Source: a virus. From it: DNA of 25,567 nt. Positions 2,583 through 23,589 of this stretch are shown one piece after another. The DNA is taken from positions 1-25,567 of the IMG/VR virus record IMGVR_UViG_3300035684_000076; one strand, given 5' to 3'. Numbering within the stretch: the first letter of the stretch is position 1; every line of letters begins with the position of its first letter. The notes under the pieces were generated by a model. That model was not told the DNA's origin. It made no database searches and worked only from the letters and a program-made list of their open reading frames with translations. A program made the position numbers and the translations under genes.

Positions 2583-2636
2583 GGCGCGGCCCTCCCGGGC
2601 CCGGTTGTACCACGCCCCGCACCGACGCGGCGCCGT

Positions 2637-2643
2637 CCCTTCT
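2637..2643 (+). repeat. Leader motif CCCTTCT, 8 bases before an ATG
   Basis: Copy of the recurrent pyrimidine-rich leader motif; it ends 8 bases before the ATG at 2652, and no Shine-Dalgarno lies between. Confidence 0.5.
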
Positions 2644-2651
2644 CCCCGGAC

Positions 2652-2855
2652 ATGAGGACCTTCTTCACGCAGCGGCACCGACGGCTGATGGGCCTGGACG
2701 CCCCGGCTGACGAGCCGCCCCTCCCGCCACCCAACCTCCCCGCGGCATGCTGCGCCCTGGCCGTCGCCACCCGCTGCACCTGCGAGGCGGTGAAGTGGCG
2801 GTGTCCGGAGCACGGCACCCGCGGCCAGCCCTGCACCGCCCTTTCTCATGACTGA
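2652..2855 (+). CDS. Small Cys-containing hypothetical protein
   Basis: 67-residue ORF with a basic start (MRTFFTQRHRR), a Pro-rich middle (PPLPPPNLP) and a Cys-rich end with CC, CTC, WRCPEHG and a final Cys. Cys and His spacing would allow metal binding, but no known family is recognised. The start is supported by the CCCTTCT leader motif eight bases upstream and by the strong terminator shortly after the stop. It is divergent from the kinase-like membrane gene (70-base gap), so both may be expressed from that gap. There is a modest chance that it is not coding. Confidence 0.45.
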   Translation: MRTFFTQRHRRLMGLDAPADEPPLPPPNLPAACCALAVATRCTCEAVKWRCPEHGTRGQPCTALSHD

Positions 2856-2900
2856 GGAGGCCGGACTAGCCGGCATCCAGAGGCCGCTCGCACCGGCCTC

Positions 2901-2945
2901 CACGGCCCTGGACGGACTCCCCCCTTCCGTCCAGGGCCGTGTTTT
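2901..2945 (+). terminator. Strong rho-independent terminator
   Basis: Perfect 16-pair stem, 2901-2916 with 2926-2941, nine-base loop, followed directly by TTTT (2942-2945). The T-tract is on the plus strand. It closes the transcript of the small gene ending at 2855 and separates it from the gene starting at 2974. Confidence 0.92.
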
Positions 2946-2973
2946 GTCCACCCCAACCCACAGGAGTGCACCC

Positions 2974-3462
2974 ATGGCATGCCCCAGTCCCACCGCTTCC
3001 CCGCCCACGCTGAGCGCCCTCCTGGGTGAGCTCGCCCGGCTCGACGCCGACGAGGCCGACATGCTGCGTGAGGAGGTACAGGAGTTGGAGGAGCGGCTCA
3101 CCCGGGCCCGCGCGCAGCTCGACGCCGACGAGGCCGCGCTCGCCCAGGTGCGGGCGGACGGCTCGAAGGCTGCCTCGGACGAGTGGGCCCTGCGCTCCTC
3201 GGCCGCCTCGGGCGCCAGGCGGGCGGTGCTGCTGCTGTTGGTGGATGCTGGGGCCCTGCGCGCGCAGCTTGAGCGGGCGCTCTTCCTCACGCGAATGGAG
3301 AGGGCCTCTGGACAGAGGCGGTGCCGGGTGTGTGAGGGGACGGGGAAGGGGGCGCCGCTCGACGCGGGCACCTCCCTCTACTGGCCGCCGTGTGACACCT
3401 GCGCGGGCGAGGGTTGGGTGGAGAGCACAACGGCTGGCGCGACGGGCCGGAGCAACCGCTGA
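2974..3462 (+). CDS. Coiled-coil protein with DnaJ-like zinc motif
   Basis: 162 residues. Residues about 13-62 form an acidic/basic heptad-rich coiled coil (LLGELARLDADEADMLREEV and on). An Ala/Leu helix follows (82-105). The C-terminus has two CxxCxGxG-type motifs, CRVCEGTG (117-124) and CDTCAGEG (140-147), as in the DnaJ cysteine-rich domain, able to hold one zinc. The ATG at 2974 has AGGAG (2962-2966) at normal distance and lies after the terminator; an in-frame ATG at 2848 is rejected because the terminator would fall inside the gene. Function unknown; small phage proteins with isolated DnaJ-type zinc knuckles occur, but no specific role can be assigned. Confidence 0.65.
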   Translation: MACPSPTASPPTLSALLGELARLDADEADMLREEVQELEERLTRARAQLDADEAALAQVRADGSKAASDEWALRSSAASGARRAVLLLLVDAGALRAQLERALFLTRMERASGQRRCRVCEGTGKGAPLDAGTSLYWPPCDTCAGEGWVESTTAGATGRSNR

Positions 3463-3494
3463 GAGCGTGGTGGCGCCCCTTGTCGCCTCCGACG

Positions 3495-3517
3495 CCGGCA
3501 CGCATCCCGCGTGCCGG
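3495..3517 (+). promoter_or_regulatory. Perfect 9-pair hairpin before the amidohydrolase gene
   Basis: CCGGCACGC (3495-3503) pairs with GCGTGCCGG (3509-3517) around a five-base loop. No T-tract follows, so it is not a classical terminator. It sits 17 bases before the ATG at 3535, just ahead of the GGAGG site, and could modulate translation or act as an operator. Confidence 0.4.
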
Positions 3518-3534
3518 GCCGTCTCGGAGGTTTC

Positions 3535-5178
3535 ATGCAGCTCACCAAGACACTCCTGCTGTTCGCCGGGCTCTCCCTGGCCTGCACCACCGTAGCGCCG
3601 GTGGAGCCGCCCACCGTCGTCATCCACAACGCGAGGGTGTGGCCGGGCCTGGGGCAGCCCCTGGCGGAGGCCATCGCGCTCCGTGGCCCCACCGTGCTGG
3701 CGGTGGGCTCATCCCGCGAGATGCTGGCGCTGGCCGGACCCGACACCAAGCGCGTGGACGCGGGAGGACAGCTCGTCACCCCCGCCTACCGGGAGGCCCA
3801 CTCCCACTCGGACGCTCCACCCTTCCAGCCCATGGGGTGCCTGGGCGCCGGCTTCACCGCGAGCCCCGCCACCTTGGGCGGCCCCACCAAGGCGGAGGTG
3901 GAGGCGTGCGTCCGCTCCAGCGTGGCGCGGTACGGGCCCGGGGTGCCGCTGTTGGGCATTGTCGGGGACTCCTACCTGCGCGAGCCCGAGCGCGGCCGGG
4001 CCTTTCTGGACCCGCTCTCGCCCAACAACCCCGTCATCCTCGTCACCTGGAGCGGCCACCAGCTCGCGGCCAACAGCGCCGCGCTGGCCATGGGGGGTGT
4101 GCACCCCCGCCTCACGCCGGACCACCCATGGGGCGGATGGGAGCGCGACTCGAGCGGCGAGCTCACCGGCGTCGTCAACGAGTACGACCAGTTGCGCTTT
4201 CACCGGCTGCTCGGCAACAGCGCCCCCGACTCCTTCTACGCCGGGGTGTACGCCGCCTATGACGAGCGCGCGGTGCAGCTCGGTTGGACCAGCGTCCAAT
4301 CCCTTCCAATTTCCATTTCTTCGGACAGGGAGCGACGGGTGCTCGCGGGCATGGATCTCAAACTCGACTGGGAGACGGTGTGCTTCCCGGAGTCGGAGAG
4401 CGAGCCCTGTGAGGGCTACCGGACGGTGAAGTACCTGCGCAGCGGCACCCCGGTGGAGTGGCGCACGCCCATGTACGAGGGGTATCGCGACATCCCGACG
4501 TGGCTGCCCGCGGGCTGGCGCGGCATCTACAACCTGGACAACGCCGCCCTCGCCCGCGTCATCACCCGGGCCCGCGAGTCCGGGCAGAGGGTGATGCTCC
4601 ACGTCCTCGGTGATGAGGAGGCGGACACCTCGCTCGAAGTGGTGGAAGCCCTGGGTGCTGGCGGCGAGGACATCCGCTTCGAGCACGGCTACCTGACGAC
4701 GGATGCCGGGTACGAGCGAGCGAAGGCAATGGGGGTGACGGTGGTGCAGGAGCCCACGCACACCATCCTCAAGCCCTGGTACGCGGGGAAGTACGGGCCC
4801 GAGGTGGCTGCGCACGCACACCCCATGCGCTCGCTGGTTGACCGGGGTGTGCGCCTGGCCTTCGCCACGGACGCCTTCGGCACGCCGGGGGACCCGCGCG
4901 TCCTCCAGGTGGTCGCCAGGACGAATCCGCTCGGCGACCCGGGTGAGGCAGTGACACCGGAACTGGCGCTGCACCTCCTCACCCGAGCAGTGGCGGAGGC
5001 CCAGGGGCACAGCGACCGGGGGAGTCTCACCCCGGGCCAGCGTGCGGACCTCCTCGTCCACAGCGTGGACCTGCTCGCGGCGGACGCGCCCGTGGAAGCG
5101 GATGTCGTCCGGCTCAACATGCAGGCGAGCTCACCCATCTGGGACGACGGCAGCCTCACGCCGGCAGGTGGCTGGTAG
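3535..5178 (+). CDS. Lipoprotein amidohydrolase, YtcJ/Amidohydro_3-like
   Basis: 547 residues. It starts with a short lipoprotein-type signal, TLLLFAGLSLAC, with Cys17 as the likely lipidated residue, so it should be envelope-anchored. The rest has the amidohydrolase plan: a small beta domain (VVIHNARVWPG, AIALRGPTVLAVG), then TPAYREAHSHSD with metal-ligand His89 and His91, later His in VMLHVLGDEEAD, RFEHGY, and the conserved Asp in LAFATDAFGTPGDP. A C-terminal GSLTPGQRADLLVHSVD returns to the beta domain, as in the metal-dependent hydrolase family. The usual PGFxDxHxH is altered to PAYREAHSH. Start chosen at ATG 3535, with GGAGG four bases upstream; eight extra residues are possible from 3511. 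It is not a phage function; between small phage-type genes and a terminator it looks like cargo. Substrate unknown. A short A/T-richer patch (4296-4326, SLPISISS) interrupts otherwise GC-biased codon use. Confidence 0.85.
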   Translation: MQLTKTLLLFAGLSLACTTVAPVEPPTVVIHNARVWPGLGQPLAEAIALRGPTVLAVGSSREMLALAGPDTKRVDAGGQLVTPAYREAHSHSDAPPFQPMGCLGAGFTASPATLGGPTKAEVEACVRSSVARYGPGVPLLGIVGDSYLREPERGRAFLDPLSPNNPVILVTWSGHQLAANSAALAMGGVHPRLTPDHPWGGWERDSSGELTGVVNEYDQLRFHRLLGNSAPDSFYAGVYAAYDERAVQLGWTSVQSLPISISSDRERRVLAGMDLKLDWETVCFPESESEPCEGYRTVKYLRSGTPVEWRTPMYEGYRDIPTWLPAGWRGIYNLDNAALARVITRARESGQRVMLHVLGDEEADTSLEVVEALGAGGEDIRFEHGYLTTDAGYERAKAMGVTVVQEPTHTILKPWYAGKYGPEVAAHAHPMRSLVDRGVRLAFATDAFGTPGDPRVLQVVARTNPLGDPGEAVTPELALHLLTRAVAEAQGHSDRGSLTPGQRADLLVHSVDLLAADAPVEADVVRLNMQASSPIWDDGSLTPAGGW

Positions 5179-5212
5179 CGCAAGGCCGAGGGTGCCAACA
5201 GGCGGTACAAGA

Positions 5213-5247
5213 AAGGGCCCGGCTCCGAAGGTGGAGACCGGGCCCTT
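5213..5247. terminator. Bidirectional terminator between convergent genes
   Basis: Ten-pair stem, AAGGGCCCGG (5213-5222) with CCGGGCCCTT (5238-5247). On the minus strand it is followed by TTTCTTGT, fitting termination of the small membrane gene; it also lies 35 bases after the stop of the amidohydrolase gene. Confidence 0.7.
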
Positions 5248-5294
5248 CGCACGTCAGGGGGGGGCGGGTAGCGCAGCAGGTGCGCGTCGCAGCT

Positions 5295-5597
5295 TCACCG
5301 GCTCGCGTGGGGGCCGTCGGCCAGCCTCTCAATGGCGCGAGCAAGGCGGGCGAGCTCGCCGCGCATTGCCTCGAGCTGGGCCTCGACGCGCGCGGCCTGG
5401 GCGCTGGCGCTGGCCTGGGCGGCCGAGACGCGGGCCAGCTCCGTCTCCGCCGTGGTGGCGCGGCGCTCGAGGTTCCGCACGTCCGCGCCCAGCGTGCCCC
5501 ACTGCGCGGCATGCCCGAGCAGGGTGACGACGATCGGCACGGCCATGAGGAGCCAGGGCGAGGGCTTTGACTCGGGGGCAGAGGTAGGGGTGCTCAT
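5295..5597 (-). CDS. Small membrane-anchored coiled-coil protein
   Basis: 100 residues: short polar N-terminus, one transmembrane helix (about 15-31, WLLMAVPIVVTLLGHAA), then a coiled coil to the end (NLERRATTAETELARVSAAQ, QAARVEAQLEAMRGELARLA). The single N-terminal anchor with a long helix resembles inner-membrane spanins (Rz-like) and other small phage lysis or holin-associated proteins, but this architecture is not specific and no endolysin or outer spanin lies beside it. It is a lone minus-strand gene, bounded on the left by the bidirectional terminator. The ATG is preceded by the phage leader motif at eight bases rather than a Shine-Dalgarno. Coding is likely; the lysis role is a guess. 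Confidence 0.6.
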   Translation of the reverse strand: MSTPTSAPESKPSPWLLMAVPIVVTLLGHAAQWGTLGADVRNLERRATTAETELARVSAAQASASAQAARVEAQLEAMRGELARLARAIERLADGPHASR

Positions 5598-5605
5598 GCC
5601 CCCTC

Positions 5606-5613
5606 AGAAGGGG
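5606..5613 (-). repeat. Leader motif CCCCTTCT, 8 bases before ATG (minus)
   Basis: Minus-strand copy of the recurrent leader motif; it continues as GAGGGG, giving a CCCCT/AGGGG mini-hairpin, and lies 8 bases before the ATG at 5597. The same 15-base string (GCCCCTTCTGAGGGG) recurs on the plus strand at 5853-5867, making an inverted pair across the divergent region. Confidence 0.55.
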
Positions 5614-5853
5614 CGAAGAGCACCCCCCACCCTCAAAAACCGGGTGGCGGGCCAGGAATTGGATTGCTCGGCGGTGTGCAATCTCGCGCTCGCGGTTACC
5701 CCACGGTACCCCCAGTGGCCGCCACGCCGAAACTGTCGGACGACCCCCTGTTTTCGGGGGCTGTGGGCCGCACCACGGGCTGTAAGCGCCCGTAATCACA
5801 ACGGGAGGTGTTTCGGAAGGGGTGCGCGGCGGCGCGGGAATGGTGCGCTGGCG

Positions 5854-5861
5854 CCCCTTCT
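5854..5861 (+). repeat. Leader motif CCCCTTCT, 40 bases before ATG
   Basis: Plus-strand copy of the leader motif. Here it ends 40 bases before the ATG at 5902, which has its own CGGAGG site. The same longer distance (39) is seen before the capsid gene. Confidence 0.45.
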
Positions 5862-5901
5862 GAGGGGTGTCACCTCGCAATATCCGCCCACGGAGGCACC
5901 C

Positions 5902-6399
5902 ATGACGAGCAGCGCCAGCAGCACCCCCACCCTCACCCTCGGACGCATCGCCTTCGAGGCCTACGGCAACCACCCTGGCCCCTATGGCAGGTGGGCCACC
6001 TTCGACGGGCGGCCCATGCCTGGCTGGGAGGAACTCGACACCGAGAGCGGCAAGCTCACTCGCGAGAGGTGGGAGGTCGGCATCATGGCTGCCATCGCCG
6101 AACACGAGCGGCGCACCAAGCCACAGGACGGGCTTGCCGTGGGGAAGGTGTCCGTCTCCCTGGACACGTCCGAGTTCCAGAAACAGGTGGCGGAGCTCGC
6201 GGAGCTCACGGAGTCTTCCGGCGTCGACCCCTTCCTCCTGGGCATCCAGGAGATCGCCAGCGCAACCCGCGAGCTGGCCGAGGCCCGGCGGGCCATCGCT
6301 CTCATCGAGGGCGCTGGCCATCTCCGTGCCCTCATCGATGACGTGACGAAGGCGCTGCGCGCCCGGGTCCTCGACATGGCCGCTCCCCCCTCCACCTGA
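5902..6399 (+). CDS. Phage hypothetical protein, first gene of the late block
   Basis: 165 residues, ATG with CGGAGG six bases upstream. The N-terminal half carries GRIAFEAYGNHPGPYGRWATF and GWEELDTESGKLTRERWEVG, the last resembling a short W...L...W helical motif common in phage proteins of unknown role that sit beside terminase genes. The C-terminal half is helical and amphipathic (QKQVAELAELTE, ELAEARRAIALIEGAGHL). No signal peptide or membrane helix. It lies 46 bases upstream of the small terminase gene, so a part in packaging or early morphogenesis is possible, but I do not recognise a defined family. Confidence 0.65.
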   Translation: MTSSASSTPTLTLGRIAFEAYGNHPGPYGRWATFDGRPMPGWEELDTESGKLTRERWEVGIMAAIAEHERRTKPQDGLAVGKVSVSLDTSEFQKQVAELAELTESSGVDPFLLGIQEIASATRELAEARRAIALIEGAGHLRALIDDVTKALRARVLDMAAPPST

Positions 6400-6430
6400 C
6401 ACCCCGCGGCGAAGGGGCGGTGTCGATCCG

Positions 6431-6438
6431 CCCTTTCT
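6431..6438 (+). repeat. Leader motif CCCTTTCT, 7 bases before ATG
   Basis: Leader-motif copy directly before the small terminase gene (ATG 6446); the spacer is CCCCGGC and there is no Shine-Dalgarno. Confidence 0.5.
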
Positions 6439-6445
6439 CCCCGGC

Positions 6446-7066
6446 ATGGCCCGTCCGAGGGGAATGCCGCCGGAGTTGCTGGGTGAGCCCTCGGAAGGGG
6501 GGGAGGCGGGTGCGTCCGAGCTGCCCGACCCGTTGGAGGGCTACCGGTTCCGCCCAGGCCGCCGGGGCCCGCGCACCACTCTCACCAGCGAGATGATTCC
6601 TGTCATCGCCGAGTGGCTTGCGCGGACGGGTGTATTGCGCATCGCCGCGGCGAAGGCGGGCACCACCGAGGACTGCCTCGGCAAGTGGCTCTCCAAGGGC
6701 AGGGGCACGGCGGCCCGCAGGAAGAGTAGCCTCTACACCGAGTTGCTCACCGCGTGCGAGGAGGCCTGGGCCCACCGCTTCAGCCACCTCATTGAGCTCG
6801 GCGAGCGGACCGTCACCGATAGACACATGAACCCCCGCTTCGTCACCTGGCTCATGTCGGTGACGGGGCCCAAGCACTTCACGGTACCACGGGAGCCTAC
6901 AGGCCAGGCCCAGGGCAACGGGCTGGGCCCGGCCTTCGAACTGGTGACACCCGAGGCCGCGGCGACGAGCGTCCACACCAAGCTCCTGCGCTTCCTCGAG
7001 GAGGATGACAAGCGCACGGCGCTGGAGGTAGCCGCTGCGGCCGAGGAAGCCAGCGAGGCCGGATGA
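6446..7066 (+). CDS. terS: Probable terminase small subunit
   Basis: 206 residues. A basic, Gly/Pro-rich start is followed by a helix-turn-helix region (about 47-82: TSEMIPVIAEWLARTGVLRI, AAAKAGTTEDCLGKWLSKG), as in small terminases that recognise pac/cos DNA. The middle helices (about 92-125, YTELLTACEEAWAHRFSHLI) could form the oligomerisation region, and a hydrophilic C-terminal tail could contact the large subunit. The stop overlaps the start of the large terminase (ATGATG, 7063), a translationally coupled pair. The role is assigned from HTH plus position; sequence conservation in this family is always low. The start codon is supported by the leader motif seven bases upstream. Confidence 0.75.
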   Translation: MARPRGMPPELLGEPSEGGEAGASELPDPLEGYRFRPGRRGPRTTLTSEMIPVIAEWLARTGVLRIAAAKAGTTEDCLGKWLSKGRGTAARRKSSLYTELLTACEEAWAHRFSHLIELGERTVTDRHMNPRFVTWLMSVTGPKHFTVPREPTGQAQGNGLGPAFELVTPEAAATSVHTKLLRFLEEDDKRTALEVAAAAEEASEAG

Positions 7067-8616
7067 TGGTCGCCACGGCCGCCGTGCTCGAGGCGGGGGA
7101 GAATCTCCTCGCCGGGCTCACCCTCATCAGCCCGGAGACACACGGGCGCTACTCGCTGTCGGAGCGCGCGGCGCTGAAGTTCCGCGCGCAGCTGCGCAAG
7201 GCGGGGAAGCTGGCCGAGGCCCTGGCGTCCTCCCCCGCCATCGCCGAGCACCTGAGGCTGACTCAGGCGGAGGTGCTCGCCTGGTACTACGACCAGCGTC
7301 TCTGGCGACGGCCGGTGCAGGCGCCACCCCAGGGCTACTGGCGCACCTGGTTCCTGCTCGGTGGGCGAGGCGCGGGCAAGACGTATGCCGGCAGCGTGGC
7401 CGTCATCGAGGAGGCGATGGCGGACCCGGAGGCCCGGATCCTCATCGTCGGGCCCACCGACAGCGAGATCCGGAAGACGCAACTCGAAGGGCCCAGCGGC
7501 ATCCTCACGCTCGCCCCACCCTGGTTCCGACCCCTCCACCGAAGGAGCAAGCGCGCCCTCGACTTCCCCAACGGTGCGAAGGCCTTCTACGTCCCGGCGC
7601 AGAACCCAGACAAGCTCCGCGGCTACAATGTCTCGCTGGTATGGGCGGATGAAATTGTCGCCTGGAAGAAGTCCCCGCTCGAGGTGTACGCGGAGTGCCG
7701 CCGAGTCGCCCGCATCCAGACGACGCGCATGCGGGCGGCGGGGCTGCCGGCCCGGCTGATCATCACCACCACGCCGGCCCCCACCCAGCTCTTCCGGGAA
7801 ATCCTCTCGGACAGGGACGGGCTTGTCCTCTCACGCTCCTCCACCTTCGACAATGCCGCCAACCTGGACAGCCGCTACCTCGCGTACGCGCGCCGGGTAA
7901 TGAATACGACGGAGGGCCGCCGGGAGTTCCTGGGCGAGCTCTTCTTCGCGCTCGACTCTTGCCTCTACCGGCGGGTGGACTGGAATGCCTCCCGGGTGGC
8001 GAGCCTGGAGGCCATTCCTCCCCGCGAGGGCAAGCCGCTCTTCGACAGGCTGGTAGTGAGCGTCGACCCCGCGACGGGGGAGAAGAAGTCCTCGGACCTC
8101 CATGGGATTGTGGTGGAGGGCATTCGCGAGGAGGCGGACGGCCTGCTGCACACCTACGTGCTGCAGGACCTGTCCCTCCAGTCCCCCGAGCCCACCGCCT
8201 GGGCGAAGGTCGCCGTCGACGCATACCACGCCTGGAAGGGGTTTGCCCCGCCGCGAAAGACTTTCATATTCGCGGAGACGAACACCGGCGGAAGCATGGT
8301 GAAAAGCACCATCCGCCAGGTGGACGGGAAGGTGCGCGTGAGGGGCCAGCGCGCCAAGCAGTCAAAGGCCGAACGCGCGGCCCCGGTGACGGCCCAGTGC
8401 GAAGCGGGACTCGTCCACATGGTGGGCAAGCACCACCGCCTCGAAGAGCAGCTCGGCAAGTTCACCGGGCAGGAGGGCGGCCACGGCCGAGATGACCGCG
8501 CCGACGCCTTCGCCTGGCCCATTTTCCTGTACGTATGTCCGAAGCGGCAGAATGCCGGTGCGGCGGGACGCCCACCCGGCGCGGAGGACGAGGAAGAGGA
8601 AGAGGACGATGAGTAG
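7063..8616 (+). CDS. terL: Terminase large subunit (packaging ATPase/nuclease)
   Basis: 517 residues, the motor that cuts concatemers and pumps DNA through the portal. ATPase domain: Walker A GGRGAGKT (about 100-107), Walker B LVWADE (about 192-197) with catalytic Glu, and the coupling motif ITTTP (about 234-238). Nuclease domain of RNase H fold: VVSVDPATGEKKSSD with Asp335, FAETNTGG with Glu405, and GRDDRADAFAW with Asp481 as likely metal ligands. The C-terminal tail is strongly acidic (EDEEEEEDDE), as often seen where it meets the portal. The start overlaps the small subunit stop; an alternative ATG one codon later is equally possible. Length and motif order fit the Terminase_6 type used by HK97-like phages. 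Confidence 0.96.
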   Translation: MMVATAAVLEAGENLLAGLTLISPETHGRYSLSERAALKFRAQLRKAGKLAEALASSPAIAEHLRLTQAEVLAWYYDQRLWRRPVQAPPQGYWRTWFLLGGRGAGKTYAGSVAVIEEAMADPEARILIVGPTDSEIRKTQLEGPSGILTLAPPWFRPLHRRSKRALDFPNGAKAFYVPAQNPDKLRGYNVSLVWADEIVAWKKSPLEVYAECRRVARIQTTRMRAAGLPARLIITTTPAPTQLFREILSDRDGLVLSRSSTFDNAANLDSRYLAYARRVMNTTEGRREFLGELFFALDSCLYRRVDWNASRVASLEAIPPREGKPLFDRLVVSVDPATGEKKSSDLHGIVVEGIREEADGLLHTYVLQDLSLQSPEPTAWAKVAVDAYHAWKGFAPPRKTFIFAETNTGGSMVKSTIRQVDGKVRVRGQRAKQSKAERAAPVTAQCEAGLVHMVGKHHRLEEQLGKFTGQEGGHGRDDRADAFAWPIFLYVCPKRQNAGAAGRPPGAEDEEEEEDDE

Positions 8617-8626
8617 GACTGGTTCG

Positions 8627-8634
8627 CCCCTTCT
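8627..8634 (+). repeat. Leader motif CCCCTTCT, 8 bases before ATG
   Basis: Leader-motif copy before the portal gene (ATG 8643). With the spacer it forms GCCCC-TTCTGTT-GGGGC, a five-pair hairpin touching the start codon. Confidence 0.55.
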
Positions 8635-8642
8635 GTTGGGGC

Positions 8643-10013
8643 ATGGGCTCTCTCGCGACCCGATTCAAGGCGGCGCTCTCCGGACTCTTCCTGGGTAGGC
8701 AGGCGGGGCGGCCGCTGGTGTACGCCATCCCCGTGCGGACCTTCTCTCCGCGGCGCGGCACCCGAGAGGTGCTGGCTGCCTACCGGGAGAATGCGTGGCT
8801 GCGGGCGGTGGTGCACACCGTGGCGGGAGCCGTGGCGACGCCGAGCTGGCGCGTCTTCCTCCCCGTTACAACACAGGGCAAGAGGCTCCTGCGCAGCTGC
8901 AAGGCAGTCGGTGCGGACCGCCGGGCAGGACTGGAAGGGGTGCTGGAGCGCCACAAGTCCCTCGCTGGCGGCGTCGCCCGGGGGGATGTCGTGGAGGTCC
9001 ACCAACACGAGTTGCTGTCCATCCTCCAACACCCTCACCCCAAGCACACCGGACGGGCCTACCGCGAGTTGATGCAGGTGCACCTCGACCTGGCGGGCGA
9101 GGCATTCCTCTGGTTGCGACGTGCCGAGGACGACGGGCGCGTGGTGGGCTTTGAGGTGATACCGCCCCAGTGCGTGGTGATGACGCCAACAGCCTCTCCA
9201 GAGGGCACCTACCACATCATCTACAACAACTTCGCGGGCCAGGTCGCGGAGTCGGAGATCATCTGGCTCAAGCACCTGGACCCCGAGAACCCCGAAGGGC
9301 GTGGGGCCGGCATGGGCTTGGCGCTCGGGGACGAGCTCGACACGGCGGAGGCGATTCAGGGCGCGCGCAAGGCCACCTTCCAACGGGGAGGCATGCCCGC
9401 GGCCACCGTGGGGGTGGACCCCGCTGAGGGCGATGATGGCGCCGACGCGGTGGAGGCCCTCAAGAAGGAGTACCAGGACTCCTTCAAGGGGCCCCAGGAC
9501 GCGGGCAAACTGTGGTTCGTCCCCGGGAAAGTCACCGTCGCCCAGTTGGACCAGGACTTCCGTGCCCTCCAGCTCGACGAGTCCGAGAGGGGCATCAAGG
9601 ACTACGTCCGCCAGTGCTTCAACATCCCCCCCGAGCTGATGGGCGACCTGGTGAGTGGCACCCGGGCGACGGCCGAAGAGGCCAAGTACACGCTCGCAGA
9701 GTACGCCGTCCTCCCTCGCATGGAATTCCTCCGCGAGGGCTACCAGCTCTACCTCGTACCGCTGGTGGATGAAGACGCGCTCCTCGAGTACCAGGACCCG
9801 CGTCCGCAGTCCTGGGAGCGCCAGCTCAAGGCGATGACCAGCGCCTTCGGCGCCCACGTCTACATGAATGAGGCACGCCTCCTCGCCGGCCTACCGCCGG
9901 ACCCGAAGCTCAAGGGGGTGCGGTTCATGCCCCTTCCCGGGGCGCAGCCCGTCCAGGACGAAGACAAGAAGCCGACGAATCCACCTCCACCCAGGGGGCC
10001 CGGCAAGGAGTGA
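8643..10013 (+). CDS. Portal protein, HK97 family
   Basis: 456 residues forming the dodecameric portal at the packaging vertex. Recognisable portal features: AYRENAWLRAVVHTVAGAVA near residue 45, the helical LLSILQHPHPKHTGRAYREL segment, VHLDLAGEAFLWLRR, VIPPQCVVMTP, ESEIIWLKHLDPENPEGRG, LALGDELDTAEAIQGARKAT, FQRGGMPAATVGV, and the conserved crown-adjacent VRQCFNIPPELMGDL with TRATAEEAKYTLAEYAVLPR. The C-terminal tail is Pro/Lys-rich. A 26-base gap from terL carries the leader motif and no Shine-Dalgarno. Order terL, portal, protease, capsid is standard for HK97-like heads. Confidence 0.93.
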   Translation: MGSLATRFKAALSGLFLGRQAGRPLVYAIPVRTFSPRRGTREVLAAYRENAWLRAVVHTVAGAVATPSWRVFLPVTTQGKRLLRSCKAVGADRRAGLEGVLERHKSLAGGVARGDVVEVHQHELLSILQHPHPKHTGRAYRELMQVHLDLAGEAFLWLRRAEDDGRVVGFEVIPPQCVVMTPTASPEGTYHIIYNNFAGQVAESEIIWLKHLDPENPEGRGAGMGLALGDELDTAEAIQGARKATFQRGGMPAATVGVDPAEGDDGADAVEALKKEYQDSFKGPQDAGKLWFVPGKVTVAQLDQDFRALQLDESERGIKDYVRQCFNIPPELMGDLVSGTRATAEEAKYTLAEYAVLPRMEFLREGYQLYLVPLVDEDALLEYQDPRPQSWERQLKAMTSAFGAHVYMNEARLLAGLPPDPKLKGVRFMPLPGAQPVQDEDKKPTNPPPPRGPGKE

Positions 10014-10018
10014 CCCCG

Positions 10019-10026
10019 CCCCTTCT
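10019..10026 (+). repeat. Leader motif CCCCTTCT, 8 bases before ATG
   Basis: Leader-motif copy before the prohead protease gene (ATG 10035); spacer CCTGCAAC, no Shine-Dalgarno. Confidence 0.5.
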
Positions 10027-10034
10027 CCTGCAAC

Positions 10035-10952: not shown

Positions 10953-10957
10953 TGCCG

Positions 10958-10965
10958 CCCCTTCT
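10958..10965 (+). repeat. Leader motif CCCCTTCT, 39 bases before ATG
   Basis: Leader-motif copy just after the protease stop, 39 bases before the capsid ATG at 11005; same wide spacing as at 5854. Confidence 0.45.
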
Positions 10966-11004
10966 ATCGCCTTGCACCCACCCCACTACTGACACGAGCA
11001 CCCC

Positions 11005-12120: not shown

Positions 12121-12183
12121 TGTGCCAGCCAGGGGCGGGGAGTCCCGCCTCGGCCACACCCTTTCATATTCGGAGTACGCCAG

Positions 12184-12618: not shown

Positions 12619-12625
12619 GGGGTAC

Positions 12626-14054: not shown

Positions 14055-14061
14055 GGCGCCG

Positions 14062-14069
14062 CCCTTTCT
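14062..14069 (+). repeat. Leader motif CCCTTTCT, 7 bases before ATG
   Basis: Leader-motif copy before the neck gene (ATG 14077); spacer CGGTGAC, no Shine-Dalgarno. Confidence 0.5.
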
Positions 14070-14076
14070 CGGTGAC

Positions 14077-14517
14077 ATGGCCTCCCGAGGGTACAGGACA
14101 CGAGTGAAGGTGGAGATGGACACCTCCCGCCTCCGACAACTGCGCTCCCAGGGTGAGCAGGTGCTGCGCGACCTGGAGTCCCCGGTGCGCGCCGCGGCCC
14201 GGCTGGCGCTCGACCAGGCCACCTTCCTGGTGCCGCGCGGGGGCGCCCCGGAGGATCCGCTCAACCTGGCGGACACCGGGTTTCTCTCCGGGCCGGTGCA
14301 CAACACCTCCGCGCGCCTCTCCGTCACCTTCACCTGCGGCTACGCGCACCCCCAGGCAGGCCCCATTCACGAGGGCTTCCACTGGGGCGAGCAGACGCGC
14401 ACCCCGCCGCCCCATTTCCTGCGCAAGGCCGCCAAGCGCGGCGTGCGCGCCCTCCTCCGCAAGGGCGTGCAGGCCACGCTCTGGAAGTCCCTCTCCCGCA
14501 TCTTCCCCTCACAGTGA
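14077..14517 (+). CDS. Neck / HK97 gp10-like protein
   Basis: 146 residues. After VKVEMDTSRLRQLRSQGEQV and a helical segment, it carries the hallmarks of the gp10-like family: LVPRGGAPEDPLNLADTGFL, CGYAHPQAGPIHEGFHWGEQ, PPPHFLRKAAKRG. In that family the small basic protein sits at the head-tail interface or completes the tail. The C-terminus is basic (RALLRKGVQATLWKSLSRIF). The start is supported by the leader motif. The tail tube gene follows after seven bases. Confidence 0.78.
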   Translation: MASRGYRTRVKVEMDTSRLRQLRSQGEQVLRDLESPVRAAARLALDQATFLVPRGGAPEDPLNLADTGFLSGPVHNTSARLSVTFTCGYAHPQAGPIHEGFHWGEQTRTPPPHFLRKAAKRGVRALLRKGVQATLWKSLSRIFPSQ

Positions 14518-14524
14518 GGAAACC

Positions 14525-14968: not shown

Positions 14969-15021
14969 CGTTTCACCTTTCCACGGGTCGATCATTACCT
15001 CTCACACCAGGACATCAAGAC

Positions 15022-15432
15022 ATGGACTCTCTCAAGGCAAAGCTGGGCAGCGCGGTATGGCGAAAGTGGAAGGATGTCGCCGTTGAGGTGGATGGCGAGT
15101 TGTTCCCGGTCGTCATCCGCAAGGCGCCTCCGGGTGTTGCGGTGCTGGTGCTGGACGAGGCCAGGAAGGCGGGGGACCTCAACGCCGAGAACGAGGCAGC
15201 GAACGAGCTGGCTGGGCTGCGACTGCTGGCGCGCATGGTGGCGACGGTGCTCTTCGCACAGGGTGCTGTGCGCCCCCTCTTCGACCGCAACAACCCGGAG
15301 GACCTCGCCACCGTCCAGACGGCACCATGGCTGATGGACCTGCGCGACGACTGCGTGGCCGCGCTCGGCGCCACCGGCGCCGCCCTGGAGAAGCTCAAGG
15401 GAAACTCCGAGGCGACCCCGACCGGGCAATAG
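15022..15432 (+). CDS. Tail assembly chaperone, short form (gpG-like)
   Basis: 136 residues, mostly helical after a small N-terminal beta unit (VAVEVDGELFPVVIRKAPPG). Helices include LDEARKAGDLNAENEAANEL, AGLRLLARMVATVLFAQGAV, RPLFDRNNPEDLATVQ. Tail assembly chaperones coat the tape measure before tube polymerisation and are absent from the virion. The gene lies between tail tube and tape measure genes. Near its 3' end is a slippery heptamer in the correct phase with a downstream stem, so part of translation should continue in the -1 frame. The zero-frame stop (15430-15432) lies in the loop of that stem. Confidence 0.85.
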   Translation: MDSLKAKLGSAVWRKWKDVAVEVDGELFPVVIRKAPPGVAVLVLDEARKAGDLNAENEAANELAGLRLLARMVATVLFAQGAVRPLFDRNNPEDLATVQTAPWLMDLRDDCVAALGATGAALEKLKGNSEATPTGQ

Positions 15433-15635
15433 AGGTCAGGGTCGCACGACTCCAGGGGTGGACGGAGCAGGAGACGCAGGCGCAATCGCTGGAGTGGATT
15501 CTCACTCTTGCGGCGGATCACATTCTGGAGTCCGAAGAGAGCGAGCGGCGCGCCGGCAGGCCGAGTCCTGGCGCCGCGCCCCATGCGGCCCAGAAGGCGG
15601 AAACCATCGAGTACCGCCTGAAGCCGAAAAGGTGA
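15022..15635 (+). CDS. Tail assembly chaperone, -1 frameshift product (gpGT-like)
   Basis: Predicted fusion of the short chaperone with the -1 frame. After slippage at G GGA AAC (15399-15405) decoding continues as KLRGDPDRAIEVRVARLQGW, then TEQETQAQSLEWILTLAADH, ending in YRLKPKR at TGA 15633-15635, seven bases before the tape measure ATG. The total is about 204 residues. The extension has no ribosome site of its own: its only in-frame ATG (15327) is deep inside the first gene. In lambda the equivalent G-T fusion recruits tail tube protein to the chaperone-coated tape measure. The Trp/Gln/Glu-rich helical extension is typical of such T domains. Confidence 0.85.
15399..15445 (+). other. Programmed -1 frameshift site with stem-loop
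   Basis: Slippery G GGA AAC (15399-15405) is in phase with zero-frame codons GGA and AAC. Six bases later a stem begins: 15412-15423 pairs with 15434-15445, 12 positions with a single C-A mismatch, ten-base loop. Heptamer phase, six-base spacer and stem size match classical -1 frameshift stimulators. Confidence 0.9.
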
Positions 15636-15641
15636 AATGTC

Positions 15642-18296
15642 ATGAGCGGCGGTGGGCTGAAGGTCGGCGATTTATACGTCTCCGTCTCGGCAAGCATTGG
15701 CGAGATGGTGAAAACCCTGCGGCAGGCTGTCGACGCCATTGAGGATGCGGCGGACGACATCGAAGGCCATCTCTCGAAGGCCTCCGCGGCCCTCGGCGAT
15801 ATGGCCGAGGGGCTCTTGTCCATGGCCGGTTTGGCGGCGGCCGCCTTCGTCACGGGCGCCGAGTCCAGCAAGCCCATGAAGGACAGCCTGGATGAGCTCA
15901 CCGGCACGCTCCGGACGCTCTCCGTGGAGGTGGGTAGCCTCTTCACCCCACTGGTGAAGGAGATGACGGCGGCGGTGAAATACGCGGTGGCCTACTGGCG
16001 CAACCTGGACGACGGGTTGAAGGCCACCATCGTCTCGACGGTGCGGAGCGCGGCCGTTTTCGGCGGGCTCGCCCTCGCCCTCTCCCGGGCATTCGTCTTC
16101 GTGAAGAGCTTCGCCGAAGGCGCCGTGGTGGCGGTTCGCACCCTCAGGTTCCTCGGCACCTCCATCATGGCCGCGGGGCCGCTCTTCACGGGCCTGGGTG
16201 CAGCCATTCAGAAGGCGGGCTGGGCGCTCGTCTACCTGCAACAGGCAACGGTGGGAGACAGTCTCGCGAAACTTTCCGCGAGCGCCACCGCGCTGACTGG
16301 GTCGCTGCGAAACGTCCCCGCCACCATCGGCAACGTGGGTGATGCATTCAGGGCGCTCGGCCCCAAGATTCTGGCGGTGGGGCTCCCGGTGCTCGCCCTC
16401 ACCGCGGCGGTCGCGGCCCTCGTACTGCTCGCGGGCAGCCTCTACAAGAATTGGGATGACCTGAAGTACCTCGTCAGCGAGTCGACGGCTGGCATCGTGG
16501 ACTCCCTCTCCCAGCTTGGGGAGACGGCGGCGCGGTTCTTCAGCAACCTCTGGTCTGGCTTCAAGGGGTTTATTCTCTCGGCGGCGGCCGTCCTGCTTGA
16601 GCAGGTGGCGAGCAAGATGCGTGCATTCGCCCGGTTCCTCGCGCCTGTGACGAGCGCGTTGAAAATGAGGGAGACCACCAAGGCACTACAGGATGTGCAG
16701 AACCTCACCGGGCAGCAGATGGTGAGCGCCATCGTCTCGGGCGCCACGGAGGCGGGAGACTACCTCGTCGGCGCAGCGAAGGAGTCGGCGCAGGCATTGG
16801 CGGACCAAACGAAGAATCTGCGCAAGGGAATCGTCTACGGGTTGAAGAGCAGCGCCGATGGGGCGGCGGAGATGGGCCTCGCGCTCAAGAAGGCCCTCGG
16901 CCTCGACGAACTGATGTCCCACGCACAGTCCATCTTCGGCCGGTTCACCGATGCTGCGCCCACTCAGGCGCAGGTGGCCGCGGTGGGCACTACCGGAACG
17001 ACTGGGGACACGGAGAAGAAAGCCGAAGAGCTCGCCAAGGCGATCCAGGAAATTTCTGGCGGCCTACTGGAGGCGGCGCGCGTCACCGGGAAGTGGCAGG
17101 CCGAGACGGCGAAGCTCGCGCGCGAGGGGCTCGCTTCAGTGCGTGACGTAGTGGGAGGCCTCGTCGCCACGGCTGTCGCCTCCTACGAGAGCAGCGAGAA
17201 GGGGAAGAAGCTCGCCGACGCGATTGTGTCCGCCAGCGAAGGCCTGCTTGGCACCCTCCGGGGGCGACTCGGCGAGGTGACGAGCTTTCTCGACACGGCC
17301 ATTCAGGGATTCACCGCGGGCGGCCCACTGGGCGGCGCACTCGCCATGTTGGGGGATCTCCTCACCAGGTCAGAGGGCTTCCAGGCCCTGGTGGAAATGC
17401 TCAATGAAATCATCCAGGCCGCCGCAGACGCCCTGGGTGGCTTCCTCGTTTCGCTCCAGCCTCTGATGGGCGCGGTGGGGCTTGTGGTGGACGCTCTGTT
17501 TCGGAGCATCGGCCCTCTGCTCAACATACTGGGCGAGGCGCTACAGCCGCTGGTGCCCATCCTGGTGCTGGTCGCGGAGTTGCTAGGCGTTTTCGAGCCC
17601 GTCATCGCGCTGCTGACAGAGGCGCTCAAGCTTTTCCTCCTGCCCCTCAATCTCCTGAAGGACGTCATCGTCAACGTCGTCTTCGTCGCAATCAAATACG
17701 TGGCGCTCGGGTTTCTCTACGTGGCCAAGGGCCTGGCCACTGCGTGGAATGGCATCCTGGGCGCGATTCAGGGGGTATTCCGCGCACTGGGCAGCATCAA
17801 GATTCTGGGAGGCAAGCCGCTTGGATTTCTCAATGACTGGGCCGACAGTCTGGAGGGCTCGAAGCTCTCCATGGACGGACTCAACGCAAGCATCGCCGAG
17901 CTCAACAACATGACGCGCGAGTCCGCGACGGCGAAGGCCCAGGAGGCCGCGGCGGTGTTGCGTAACCGCGAGGCGCTGGACAAGGCGACCGAGTCCCTCA
18001 CCAACGTGCCCAGCGGATGGAAGGTGGCGCTCGCTCGCTTCGATGCGCAGAACGCGCGCGGCGCCTCGCCCGCGCTCCCTGCCTCCACACCTGGCCCGCC
18101 CATGGCGCCCGTGTCCCCCGTGACGGTTGCGCAGCCCGCGGCCCCGGCGGCGCCCATTCAAATCGGAACCATAAACGTCTCCGCCCGCGATGAGCGGGAG
18201 GCGCTCTCGGCGCTGGAGCGCAAGTTGGACGACATGGCCTTCCGCGCCCGTGGCTCGCGAGGGCAACCCGGGCGCTATGCCAATGGGGGGCTGTAA
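15642..18296 (+). CDS. Tail tape measure protein
   Basis: 884 residues, the longest coding frame of the tail block, directly after the chaperone. The N-terminus is helical and coiled (VSASIGEMVKTLRQAVDAIE). Several hydrophobic, membrane-like stretches follow: about 63-80 (LSMAGLAAAAFVTG), 250-265 (LPVLALTAAVAALVLLAG), and a long one between about 600 and 720 (VPILVLVAELLGVFEPVIAL, VIVNVVFVAIKYVALGFLYV). These are typical of tape measures that must enter the host envelope. The C-terminus is Pro/Ala-rich, then ends in a short coiled coil (EREALSALERKLDDM). Its length suggests a tail of medium size, by the general rule that tape-measure length scales with the tail. No lysozyme or peptidase motif seen. 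ATG after AAGGTGA; the stop overlaps the next start (TAATG). Confidence 0.9.
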   Translation: MSGGGLKVGDLYVSVSASIGEMVKTLRQAVDAIEDAADDIEGHLSKASAALGDMAEGLLSMAGLAAAAFVTGAESSKPMKDSLDELTGTLRTLSVEVGSLFTPLVKEMTAAVKYAVAYWRNLDDGLKATIVSTVRSAAVFGGLALALSRAFVFVKSFAEGAVVAVRTLRFLGTSIMAAGPLFTGLGAAIQKAGWALVYLQQATVGDSLAKLSASATALTGSLRNVPATIGNVGDAFRALGPKILAVGLPVLALTAAVAALVLLAGSLYKNWDDLKYLVSESTAGIVDSLSQLGETAARFFSNLWSGFKGFILSAAAVLLEQVASKMRAFARFLAPVTSALKMRETTKALQDVQNLTGQQMVSAIVSGATEAGDYLVGAAKESAQALADQTKNLRKGIVYGLKSSADGAAEMGLALKKALGLDELMSHAQSIFGRFTDAAPTQAQVAAVGTTGTTGDTEKKAEELAKAIQEISGGLLEAARVTGKWQAETAKLAREGLASVRDVVGGLVATAVASYESSEKGKKLADAIVSASEGLLGTLRGRLGEVTSFLDTAIQGFTAGGPLGGALAMLGDLLTRSEGFQALVEMLNEIIQAAADALGGFLVSLQPLMGAVGLVVDALFRSIGPLLNILGEALQPLVPILVLVAELLGVFEPVIALLTEALKLFLLPLNLLKDVIVNVVFVAIKYVALGFLYVAKGLATAWNGILGAIQGVFRALGSIKILGGKPLGFLNDWADSLEGSKLSMDGLNASIAELNNMTRESATAKAQEAAAVLRNREALDKATESLTNVPSGWKVALARFDAQNARGASPALPASTPGPPMAPVSPVTVAQPAAPAAPIQIGTINVSARDEREALSALERKLDDMAFRARGSRGQPGRYANGGL

Positions 18297-19087
18297 TGGC
18301 GTTGCTGACGCTCAACGGGGTGGAACTCCTGTGCACGGCGTCCGAGTGGGAGCCCATTCGCCTCGGAGACGTGGCGCGCTCGCTCAACGGCGCCCCCCGG
18401 GACATGGCCCGGGTGCGCAAGGCCGACTACCGCTTCACCTCCCCCCTCCTGACGCTGGCAGCGGCAGAGGCCTGGCGCGGGCTCATCGAGGGAGAGGGAC
18501 ACACTCTGAGCTTCGAGGACACCACGACGGCCGGCTCGTACCTCTGGACGTCCCGCGTCGCGGTACCCAGCAGCATTTCCTCCTCCCCCGCGCCCGCCCG
18601 CAGCACCAGCACGAAGAAGCACGGGGCCGCCTCCCTCCACCTCCCCAGCCTCGCCGAGGTGCGGTGGGCGCTGGGGCTGGGCGCCACGTGGACGCTGCTG
18701 GCCTGGGAGTGGGTGGGTGGCGCATGGGGGCACTGGTGCCTCCGGAGCGACGGGGCGAGCTGGTACAACGGCGTGCTCGACGCCGGCTCGCTCGCCGGGC
18801 AGCTTGGCGTCTCCTCCGGAGAGCTCGTCCTGGCAGGCACGGGCGGCACCGGCCGGTACTTCGACGAAGTGGTTGCGCTGCCCTACTCGGTGGTGAATGC
18901 CTGGGTGCCGGCGCTCTACGCCTTCCACCAGGTACAGGCGTGGCCCGCCCTTCCTTATGTCCATGCGGGTGGGGCTCGCCTCCCCGCGGGCGGGCTGGTG
19001 GCAGTGGGTCGCGCCGGCTCGGGGCGCACGGTGCCGTTGCTTGACGAGTCCGGGGAAACCTTCGACTTCACCCTCTACGGCGCCTGA
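18296..19087 (+). CDS. Distal tail-like protein
   Basis: 263 residues of beta-rich sequence with many aromatic residues (ATWTLLAWEWVGGAWGHWCL). Begins LLTLNGVELLCTASEWEP, a start reminiscent of distal tail (Dit) proteins in which a short beta strand names the gene product's ring domain; later YDEVV-like FDEVVALPYSVVNAWVPALY and TGRYF. It is placed between tape measure and hub genes, where the Dit ring that joins tube and tip is encoded. One-base overlap with the tape measure stop shows coupling. Role by position and fold impression; no diagnostic motif. Confidence 0.6.
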   Translation: MALLTLNGVELLCTASEWEPIRLGDVARSLNGAPRDMARVRKADYRFTSPLLTLAAAEAWRGLIEGEGHTLSFEDTTTAGSYLWTSRVAVPSSISSSPAPARSTSTKKHGAASLHLPSLAEVRWALGLGATWTLLAWEWVGGAWGHWCLRSDGASWYNGVLDAGSLAGQLGVSSGELVLAGTGGTGRYFDEVVALPYSVVNAWVPALYAFHQVQAWPALPYVHAGGARLPAGGLVAVGRAGSGRTVPLLDESGETFDFTLYGA

Positions 19088-19091
19088 GTCA

Positions 19092-19099
19092 CCCCTTCT
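19092..19099 (+). repeat. Leader motif CCCCTTCT, 7 bases before ATG
   Basis: Leader-motif copy before the tail hub gene (ATG 19107); spacer CCCGGGC, no Shine-Dalgarno. Confidence 0.5.
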
Positions 19100-19106
19100 C
19101 CCGGGC

Positions 19107-21551
19107 ATGCGCCTACTCTCCTCCGTTCAAGCGAAGCTGCTGGCGTGCCCCACGGGCTTCACCGCCCGGGGCCGCGTCCGTGTCCAGGGCCCGGCCAGCA
19201 CGTGGTATGACCTCACCAACTTCCTCGGGCGCGACTTCCTCGAGGAGGTCACCGTCGACGAGTCGCTCGACGCGCCGGTGGGCCAGGCGACGGTGCGCCT
19301 GCTGCGCGAGGTACATGGACTCTCCCTCGCCCCCTTCGTCACCGACTCGCCCGCCAACAACCTCGGCGGCGCCTACTCGCCCCTGTTGCAACTCGGCCGC
19401 ACCTTCCGGGTGGAGGTGGGGCTGGCCCCGTCCGGCATGGAGCCGGGTGCCTCGGACTGGCTGCCCCTCTTCCTGGGCCGCATCGACGAGGTGGACAGCG
19501 GCCCCGCCGTCCTCACCTTCACCGGCCGGGACTACCTGGGCGGCGCGCTGCAGGATGTCTACATCGAGCAGGAGCACACCTACGGCAGCACCGCGGGCGT
19601 GCCCCTCCAGACGGTGTGTCAGGCCATCCTCACCGACGCGGGCCTGGGCAGCGTCGGACTCTACACGCCGACGGACCCCGCCTGGAGCCTGGGCCCCTAC
19701 AAGCAGGACGTCGAGCCCGTGATGGACGCGCTCAGCAAGTTGGCCACCGCACGCGGCTGGGAGGTGCGGCAGAAGCTGCGGCCGGACACCAGTGACTGGG
19801 GCCTGTGGCTGTGGGGCCCGGACAGGGCCGCCACCGCGGCCTCGTGGGTGTACACCGCCAGTGACTACCAGGAGGTGGGGCAGCTCTCCACCGCCCTCGG
19901 CGACATCCGGACGGCGGTGGAGGTGGTGTTCTCCGACCACTCGGACCTCGATGCCGCCCTCCAGCCGAAGCGAAAGACGGTGCGCAGGGAGAATGCCACC
20001 GCCACCGCGAGCTATGGACTCACCCCTCCCGGCGGTGGCCCCCCGGTGCCCCGCTTCATGCGCCTCGCCGAAGGCGCGACGTCCAACATTCGCACCCTCG
20101 CAGAGGCTGAGCGCCTCGCCGACGCCGCCCTGGCGGACCTCTCGGACGGCACCGCCACGGTACTGGTGGAGGTGGCGCACCACCCCGCGCTCGATCTGGC
20201 GGACCTTGTGCAGCTCGCCGCGAACGGCGTGAATTTCACCGCCGCGCAGACGCTCGCCGTCCGCCAGCTCACCCACACCCTGAGCAGCTCGAGCGCTCGC
20301 ACGCGCCTGGCTCTCAAAGGCAAGCCCGCGCTGTCGCCGCGCACGTGGCTCGACATGGAGGCTCGCCCTGGCATCGCCCCCGCCGCGCCCTTCACCGGGC
20401 CCGCCGCACCCTCGGGGCTCGCGGTAACGAACACCGTCTCCGGCGCCGCGCTGCTCTTCACCGCCCCCAGTACCGGCCCCGAGGCCGACAGCTATGAGCT
20501 CCACGTGGGCACCTCCGCCGGCTTCGCCCTCTCCAGCGCCACCCTCAAGGCGGTGAGCAGCTCCACGCGCTTCGATGTGAGCGGCTTGGTGGCCGGGGGT
20601 GCCTACTGGGCCCGAGTGCGAAGCCGGGATAAGAAGGGCAACGTGGGTCCCGCTTCAGATGAGGTGTCCCTGGCTCCGAGATATGTCAGTCCGAGCTTGC
20701 TTCTGCCCAACGTGACGGAGGCGGTAATTCCGCGTAACTCGGACTTCGAGGCACACACAAACACACTTGCTCCACCTGATGCATGGTCTCTTAGTGACGA
20801 CGCGATATGGGGTGTAGACAGCGATACCGAGACGTCCACCGGATTTGTTTTCAGTGGGAAGCGGAGCGTCCGCCTCTTCGGGACGGGCGTCCCATTCATT
20901 CAGTCTCAGGCATTCACGGTGCGCCCGGGAGACAAGCTCGTCGCCAGCGCGCTCGTCCTCATTCCCGCGCCGCAGAACACGTCACATACGGCACGCTTGA
21001 TTGTTTTTTGGCTCAACGCAAACCTCGAATACATAACGGAAACGATTGCGTCCGCAACATATTCTGCTCCCACGAACGACTGGCAGACACTTGGCATCAG
21101 AGCGCGGCCGGTGACTGTGCCTGCGGCTGCTCGATACGCTCGACTAGCTGTTCAGAAAGACACGGCAGGGATAAACTACTCCGTTTACGTAGACTCGACG
21201 CGCGTCGTCACTCTCCCCAGCACCTTTCTCTGGCGCTACCCAACTCTGGAGGCCACCAACGGCTGGACCTACGTAAGCGGAAGGGCGCCACCGCGGTACA
21301 GGGTGTCTGCCTTGGGGGAGATCATGATGTCGGGTTCGGTAACCGGTGGCGGCACCAACTCTGTTATTCTTTACATAGACAGCGGTGACCGCCCTGGTTT
21401 TGACGCGGACTTTTCGGTGGTCGGCAATGGCAATAATCCTGCGGCCATTCGAATATCCGCCAGCACTGGAGCGGTCACCCTGACATCTGGATTTGGCCCT
21501 TTGAGCTTTGATGGTGTGAAATTCTACGCGGAGCCAGCGGGCACGCTATAG
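19107..21551 (+). CDS. Tail hub / receptor-binding protein with FN3 domain
   Basis: 814 residues. About 1-420 resembles a tail hub or baseplate protein: WYDLTNFLGRDFLEEVTVDE, FLGRIDEVDSGPAVLTFTGR, then LATARGWEVRQKLRP and an extended beta region. About 435-522 is a fibronectin type III domain (AAPSGLAVTNTVSGAALLF, DSYELHVGTS, GLVAGGAYWARVRSRDKKGN). Residues about 525-814 form one or two beta-sandwich-like modules (NSDFEAHTNTLAPPDAWSLS, FSGKRSVRLFG, ARYARLAVQKDTAG) resembling carbohydrate-binding modules of tail tips. The DNA for this last part (after about 20690) is much less GC-rich: 31, 26 and 31 G/C in the 60-base lines at 20761, 21001 and 21361, against 44 at 19501. Start at ATG 19107 is supported by the leader motif; the frame is open further upstream but overlaps the previous gene. 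Confidence 0.8.
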   Translation: MRLLSSVQAKLLACPTGFTARGRVRVQGPASTWYDLTNFLGRDFLEEVTVDESLDAPVGQATVRLLREVHGLSLAPFVTDSPANNLGGAYSPLLQLGRTFRVEVGLAPSGMEPGASDWLPLFLGRIDEVDSGPAVLTFTGRDYLGGALQDVYIEQEHTYGSTAGVPLQTVCQAILTDAGLGSVGLYTPTDPAWSLGPYKQDVEPVMDALSKLATARGWEVRQKLRPDTSDWGLWLWGPDRAATAASWVYTASDYQEVGQLSTALGDIRTAVEVVFSDHSDLDAALQPKRKTVRRENATATASYGLTPPGGGPPVPRFMRLAEGATSNIRTLAEAERLADAALADLSDGTATVLVEVAHHPALDLADLVQLAANGVNFTAAQTLAVRQLTHTLSSSSARTRLALKGKPALSPRTWLDMEARPGIAPAAPFTGPAAPSGLAVTNTVSGAALLFTAPSTGPEADSYELHVGTSAGFALSSATLKAVSSSTRFDVSGLVAGGAYWARVRSRDKKGNVGPASDEVSLAPRYVSPSLLLPNVTEAVIPRNSDFEAHTNTLAPPDAWSLSDDAIWGVDSDTETSTGFVFSGKRSVRLFGTGVPFIQSQAFTVRPGDKLVASALVLIPAPQNTSHTARLIVFWLNANLEYITETIASATYSAPTNDWQTLGIRARPVTVPAAARYARLAVQKDTAGINYSVYVDSTRVVTLPSTFLWRYPTLEATNGWTYVSGRAPPRYRVSALGEIMMSGSVTGGGTNSVILYIDSGDRPGFDADFSVVGNGNNPAAIRISASTGAVTLTSGFGPLSFDGVKFYAEPAGTL

Positions 21552-23561: not shown

Positions 23562-23589
23562 TTGTCAGGGCAGTATGTGCCCCTGTCAA
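23562..23589. promoter_or_regulatory. Operator-like inverted repeat before the sigma-like gene
   Basis: TTGTCAGGG (23562-23570) and CCCTGTCAA (23581-23589) are inverted with a ten-base centre and one T-T clash at arm position four. On the minus strand the outer end is TTGACA, a perfect -35 hexamer; the -10 at 17 bases (GACAAC) is poor, and such a transcript would begin close to the ATG at 23554. It looks like a binding site for a dimeric regulator overlapping a promoter. Confidence 0.5.

Follow-up and report, generated by a model that had tools for sequence, protein, structure and literature searches.

A GC-rich 10-base element as the probable -10-only late promoter core of temperate myxobacterial phages with their own sigma factor

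The DNA analysed here (the window) is a complete virus record, IMG/VR IMGVR_UViG_3300035684_000076, with a length of 25,567 bases and a GC content of 69%. A 10-base element, C[G/A]CCCCTTCT (the motif, or 10-mer), recurs ahead of its late genes and is probably the core of a -10-only late promoter of temperate myxobacterial phages, read by a phage-encoded sigma protein (positions 22547-23554), with the genes closest to it expressed from leaderless mRNAs. If so, the element would replace the -10 element and work without a -35 element, and its reader would be host core RNA polymerase carrying the phage protein, which belongs to the sigma-70 family. Transcription would start about 6-8 nt after the last T of the motif. 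A gene beginning 7 or 8 nt after the motif would then have a leaderless mRNA, or one whose leader spans just 1-4 nt, and would be translated without a Shine-Dalgarno (SD) sequence, and a gene 30-55 nt on would receive a short leader with a normal SD. A single start a few bases past the motif would thus account for both spacing classes. We infer the transcript starts, the promoter activity, the sigma protein as reader and leaderless translation.

The initial annotation had placed a leader motif before nine gene starts of the window, and all nine copies were found where it put them, ending 7 or 8 nt before seven start codons and 40 and 39 nt before two others (Table 1). Its claim that none of the seven close genes has an SD at normal spacing, and that their neighbours have an SD or overlap the upstream stop codon, was also borne out. 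The pattern proved firmer than this annotation had claimed. In the window, CCCCTTCT is present 7 times (0.97 expected) and CCCTTTCT 5 times (0.49 expected), counts that no shuffle reached, and 6 of the 12 exact 8-mer matches lie exactly 7 or 8 nt ahead of a gene start (binomial p ~2e-15). Three exact matches lie away from starts, two of them within genes, at 17204(-) and 23425(-). The third, a copy of CCCTTTCT at 5217(-), is the tail of an intrinsic terminator and is explained by the stem at 5211-5250, read on the minus strand. All three lack the CG or CA prefix that precedes every start-linked copy, and the real unit is therefore the 10-mer, in which the first or fourth C of CCCC is rarely replaced by T. 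The refined window pattern, C[GA][CT]CC[CT]TTCT, has ten sites, nine of which are start-associated; the site ahead of the gene at 2652 reads TCCCTTCT, a single-base deviation. The tenth site, at 2837-2846, also lies 127 nt upstream of an SD-led gene at 2974; it is ambiguous and unexplained.

The two spacing classes were also evident in a pattern census of 27 records with 235 motif copies. A start codon follows 6-9 nt after the motif in 159 copies (exactly 7 or 8 nt in 152), and an SD-led start follows after 17-55 nt in 58; the other 18 fit neither spacing rule, several of them preceding a structured leader or a shortened gene. SD-like runs occur at 5/139 close sites, compared with 14.6% at random positions, and at 48/58 leadered sites chosen without regard to the SD. 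The sequence GGGC ahead of the ATG is typical for close sites only. In the same records CGCCCCTTCT has 194 copies, approximately forty-fold the average of 4.8 found with 300 permuted 10-mers, the commonest of which overlap the motif itself; one-mismatch neighbours of CGCCCCTTCT are few and rarely at starts.

Across 205 non-redundant sites, the ten bases are invariant or nearly so, with no other conserved upstream block. The 80 bases upstream of the motif hold no shared element, so that the 10-mer stands alone. A -35 search over the 205 sites, in fixed register and by hexamer enrichment, gave nothing convincing: CTTGAA and TTGACA are absent in register, CTTGA occurs at most once in any register, and the top upstream 6-mer, a GC-repeat sequence, is found at 23 sites, where shuffles gave up to 22. 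A scan for sigma-70-type promoters found none, and T7-type RNA polymerase (PF00940) had no match in 14 records, the control genomes giving none either.

The initial annotation's expectation that the motif be kept at the same junctions in related phages was also upheld. A terminase scan of viral contigs yielded 13 close relatives (49-86% identity) and ten distant ones; the 10-mer is present in 13/13 of the former, all IMG/VR contigs, mostly at orthologous junctions, and is not carried by the ten distant relatives. Another 12 motif-rich contigs came from a scan that started with the motif, and their terminase, portal and capsid genes place all of them in the same phage family. Additionally, prophages with the motif were found in whole genomes of Archangium lansinium, two Myxococcus species (one of them M. 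xanthus AM003), Corallococcus carmarthensis and a Myxococcaceae metagenome-assembled genome. Late genes are marked by the motif, and integrase and internal operon genes are unmarked: in a gene-by-gene survey of orthologues it never preceded the integrase, helix-turn-helix genes or the internal operon genes p12184, p13288, p13626 and p14525. The marking follows the gene. For instance, the portal gene of L007 keeps its motif although approximately 1.3 kb of other DNA parts it from terL, and a rearranged prophage (G132) has motif copies ahead of displaced tail genes. In the window, both starts of the divergent pair 5597/5902 have copies, which face outward. Copies at divergent starts, at displaced genes and ahead of a structured leader are as expected of a transcription start, and the constancy of ten bases between flanks that have diverged speaks for function.

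The initial annotation had called the product of 22547-23554 sigma-like, and the profiles of its relatives and its predicted fold place it in the sigma-70 family. Relatives of the protein are encoded in 13/13 of the initial contigs and in 0/3 terminase relatives without the motif. Sigma70_r2 (region 2) was detected in 11/13 family members (best 9.8e-6) and Sigma70_r4 (the region 4 helix-turn-helix) weakly in 4/13; the window's own copy, searched alone, had no Pfam match. Compared as a profile, the family matches RpoS over regions 2 to 4 (E=1.3e-7), and FliA and RpoH rank lower. The best Foldseek matches of an AlphaFold2 model are sigma subunits (E ~1e-4), with low whole-chain TM-scores (~0.2) and moderate model confidence (pTM 0.42). 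The region 4 recognition helix reads TRERVRQI in RpoS and TLAELREL in the family consensus; from this alignment and general knowledge of sigma factors, the altered helix would fit the missing -35. No relative of the sigma protein was found in INPHARED phages by tblastn.

Sigma and motif also occur together in host genomes. Among 145 genomes of the host order, the strict motif is present in 21/22 sigma-bearing genomes compared with 6/123 without sigma (Fisher p = 6e-19), and two of the latter six, G107 and G144, harbour truncated phage relatives. There are two strict matches in the 13.8-Mb Archangium genome, both of them within the prophage, and the 10-mer is not enriched over a reversed control in two host genomes.

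Several observations weigh against a promoter read by the phage sigma. A GC-rich -10 element without a -35 is unusual. All finds of sigma and motif come from a single phage lineage, and their link could be due to common descent; phages unrelated to this lineage that have both were sought, and all motif-rich contigs examined belong to one family by structural genes. Five motif-rich contigs (G020, G026, G035, G037 and G044) have no detected sigma; for G020 and G026, at least, the reason seems to be that the contig ends just where relatives carry it. Finally, the window's own major capsid protein leader carries just a weak SD, which is strong in relatives.

Some of these points bear on who reads the motif. 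If it is the late promoter or its essential core, then a host alternative sigma, or host polymerase with another phage activator, might recognize it, and the phage sigma would have a different job. Heat-shock sigma-32 promoters have a C-rich -10 region, which the motif block resembles; sigma and motif are both fixed in one lineage, their link being one that we infer; and sigma went undetected in some motif-rich records. Such a host reader is nevertheless unlikely. Sigma-32 promoters are defined by a CTTGAA -35 (PMC10216364), which is absent from the motif sites, where TTGACA is not in register either. Host DNA is unenriched for the 10-mer, the strict form being confined to prophages, and in genomes of the host order the motif co-occurs with the phage sigma.

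The two other readings of the initial annotation place the motif in RNA. As a translation signal replacing the SD, a pyrimidine tract would bind the ribosome or S1, which would suit the exact spacing at the 152 sites, where the SD is lacking. However, this fails for the leadered copies, which stand 30-55 nt ahead of genes with a good SD, and for the copies before a non-coding structured leader; internal operon genes rely on SDs or overlaps, and the motif is absent from host genes, so that a signal of this kind is very improbable. Still harder to credit is a mini-hairpin, formed by the motif and the GGGC before the ATG, that would be a site of RNA processing or protection. GCCC...GGGC can pair at many close sites (for instance, GCCCC-TTCTGTT-GGGGC at 8626), but where the outer G is changed to A the partner remains C (21 A-C, 0 A-T), so that there is no covariation. 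Variation falls on the arm opposite CCCC, which is itself near-invariant; leadered sites lack the GGGC arm; and copies stand at divergent starts, where an upstream transcript is not expected. Terminator-like upstream stems that end in the motif, noted by eye at 6431, 10958 and 14062, were also rejected, as they are not common to all sites; the only real terminator tail is that at 5217(-). Of the initial interpretation, the reading as a -10-like element for a phage sigma with leaderless mRNAs fits all of the evidence; the translation signal leaves part of it unexplained, and the hairpin is unsupported.

Table 1. Motif copies, sigma protein and structured leaders. Positions are those of the window unless preceded by a record handle.
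Feature	Position	Strand	Context	Orthologues with motif
Motif copy CGTCCCTTCT	2634..2643	+	8 nt before ATG 2652 (67-aa gene)	5/7
Ambiguous motif copy CGCCCTTTCT	2837..2846	+	1 nt before ATG at 2848	
Motif copy CGCCCCTTCT	5606..5615	-	8 nt before start 5597 (spanin-like gene)	7/8
Motif copy CGCCCCTTCT	5852..5861	+	40 nt before ATG 5902; leadered, GGAGG 5892-5896	6/8
Motif copy CGCCCTTTCT	6429..6438	+	7 nt before ATG 6446 (terminase small subunit)	34/37
Motif copy CGCCCCTTCT	8625..8634	+	8 nt before ATG 8643 (portal)	31/37
Motif copy CGCCCCTTCT	10017..10026	+	8 nt before ATG 10035 (head maturation protease; N-terminus divergent among orthologues)	at least 16/37
Motif copy CGCCCCTTCT	10956..10965	+	39 nt before ATG 11005 (major capsid protein); leadered	
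Motif copy CGCCCTTTCT	14060..14069	+	7 nt before ATG 14077 (146-aa gene)	32/35
Motif copy CACCCCTTCT	19090..19099	+	7 nt before ATG 19107 (tail protein, fn3 domain)	3/22
Sigma-70-family protein, 335 aa	22547..23554	-	proposed motif reader	
Structured leader	L008:3657, L009:2167, L011:2037, L013:3288, L014:2915	-		
Structured leader	L133:883, L136:14248, L195:3513	+		

Functionally, the closest known system is that of the T4 late promoters, TATAAATA, which have one conserved block from -13 to -6 and are read by the phage sigma gp55 (PMC1524935; PMC3014915). In both systems a single short block near -10 is strongly conserved, a -35 is lacking, the sigma is encoded by the phage, and many copies on both strands serve late virion genes. 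A T4-like geometry would place the transcript start here on the G that lies five to seven bases past the last T, 0-3 nt before the ATG. In contrast to T4, the motif is GC-rich and unrelated in sequence (invariant block C[GA]CCCCTTCT), its phages are temperate, siphovirus-like and myxobacterial, their sigma matches RpoS regions 2 to 4, and most sites are so near the ATG that the mRNAs would be leaderless.

Other known elements share parts of this arrangement. The start-associated sequence (SAS) of cluster K mycobacteriophages, GGGATAGGAGCCC, includes an AGGAG ribosome site and is found at non-structural genes (PMC3203893). Like the motif, it is a short, asymmetric, phage-specific repeat a few bases before many starts and is conserved gene by gene; unlike it, the motif contains no SD, has a leadered class and marks virion genes. 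Leaderless genes are known in lambda, P2, Tn1721 and mycobacteria (PMC4633059), and they too lack an SD and have the start codon directly after a -10-like element. The known cases in E. coli phages are a few single genes, whereas the motif phages would have an entire late regulon of this kind, with leaderlessness deduced from spacing. Myxococcus phages Mx8, Mx9 and Mx4 have the same host group as the motif phages. In the stretches of these phages that were examined, there was no 10-mer at gene starts and no tblastn match to the window's sigma, and in Mx8 the motif is not beyond chance. Mx9 is annotated with a putative sigma70 of its own (L153:27052-27744), which has no tblastn match to the window's sigma family.

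Among the results listed by literature searches of open-licence papers (phage and promoter motif; leaderless Myxococcus and phage-sigma cases), none described the element. Phage sigma factors with -10-only late promoters, start-linked repeats and single leaderless phage genes are already known; what appears to be new is a GC-rich -10-only late promoter in temperate myxobacterial phages, by which most marked virion mRNAs would be leaderless. Whether these phages represent a self-sufficient class of GC-rich 10-bp promoter with no -35 or A/T-rich -10, a divergent sigma that has lost the usual -35 contacts and a mostly leaderless virion regulon seems evenly balanced. For this group of myxobacterial prophages, which is widespread and uncharacterised, promoter and sigma would provide a concrete, testable switch of late genes, and the pair might be used as an orthogonal tool for expression in myxobacteria. 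It would also be a natural case of leaderless and SD-led genes under one promoter element in one regulon, and lets the opening of a GC-rich, -10-only promoter by a sigma factor be tested directly.

In eight records, a motif copy is followed by a conserved structured stretch of approximately 150 nt, ahead of rusA-like and sigma genes (Table 1). It consists of a hairpin, GGGCYCGGCCG...CGGCCGAGCCC, and then ACCAGTATA..CGCCC, and is possibly a new leader RNA or riboregulator. No Rfam family reached threshold for it, and it is absent from the window. Just upstream of the window's sigma gene, positions 23562-23589 form an operator-like near-palindrome of 28 bp, TTGTCAGGGCAGTATGTGCCCCTGTCAA, that was not found in the relatives examined.

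The window has an integrase-like gene at its left end, a spanin-like gene on the minus strand and a minus-strand gene cluster at the right. Its plus strand encodes the small and large terminase subunits, portal, protease, major capsid and tail genes. The 67-aa gene at 2652 is divergent to a minus-strand gene starting at 2582, and the 146-aa gene at 14077 sits between the head and tail modules. Strong intrinsic-terminator-like stems are present at 2902-2947 and 5211-5250. Within the phage, positions 3535-5178 encode an amidohydrolase (Amidohydro_3) with a signal-peptide-like N-terminus. This is possibly a cargo gene, and homologues are present in several relatives (G033, G040, G044, G106 and G125).

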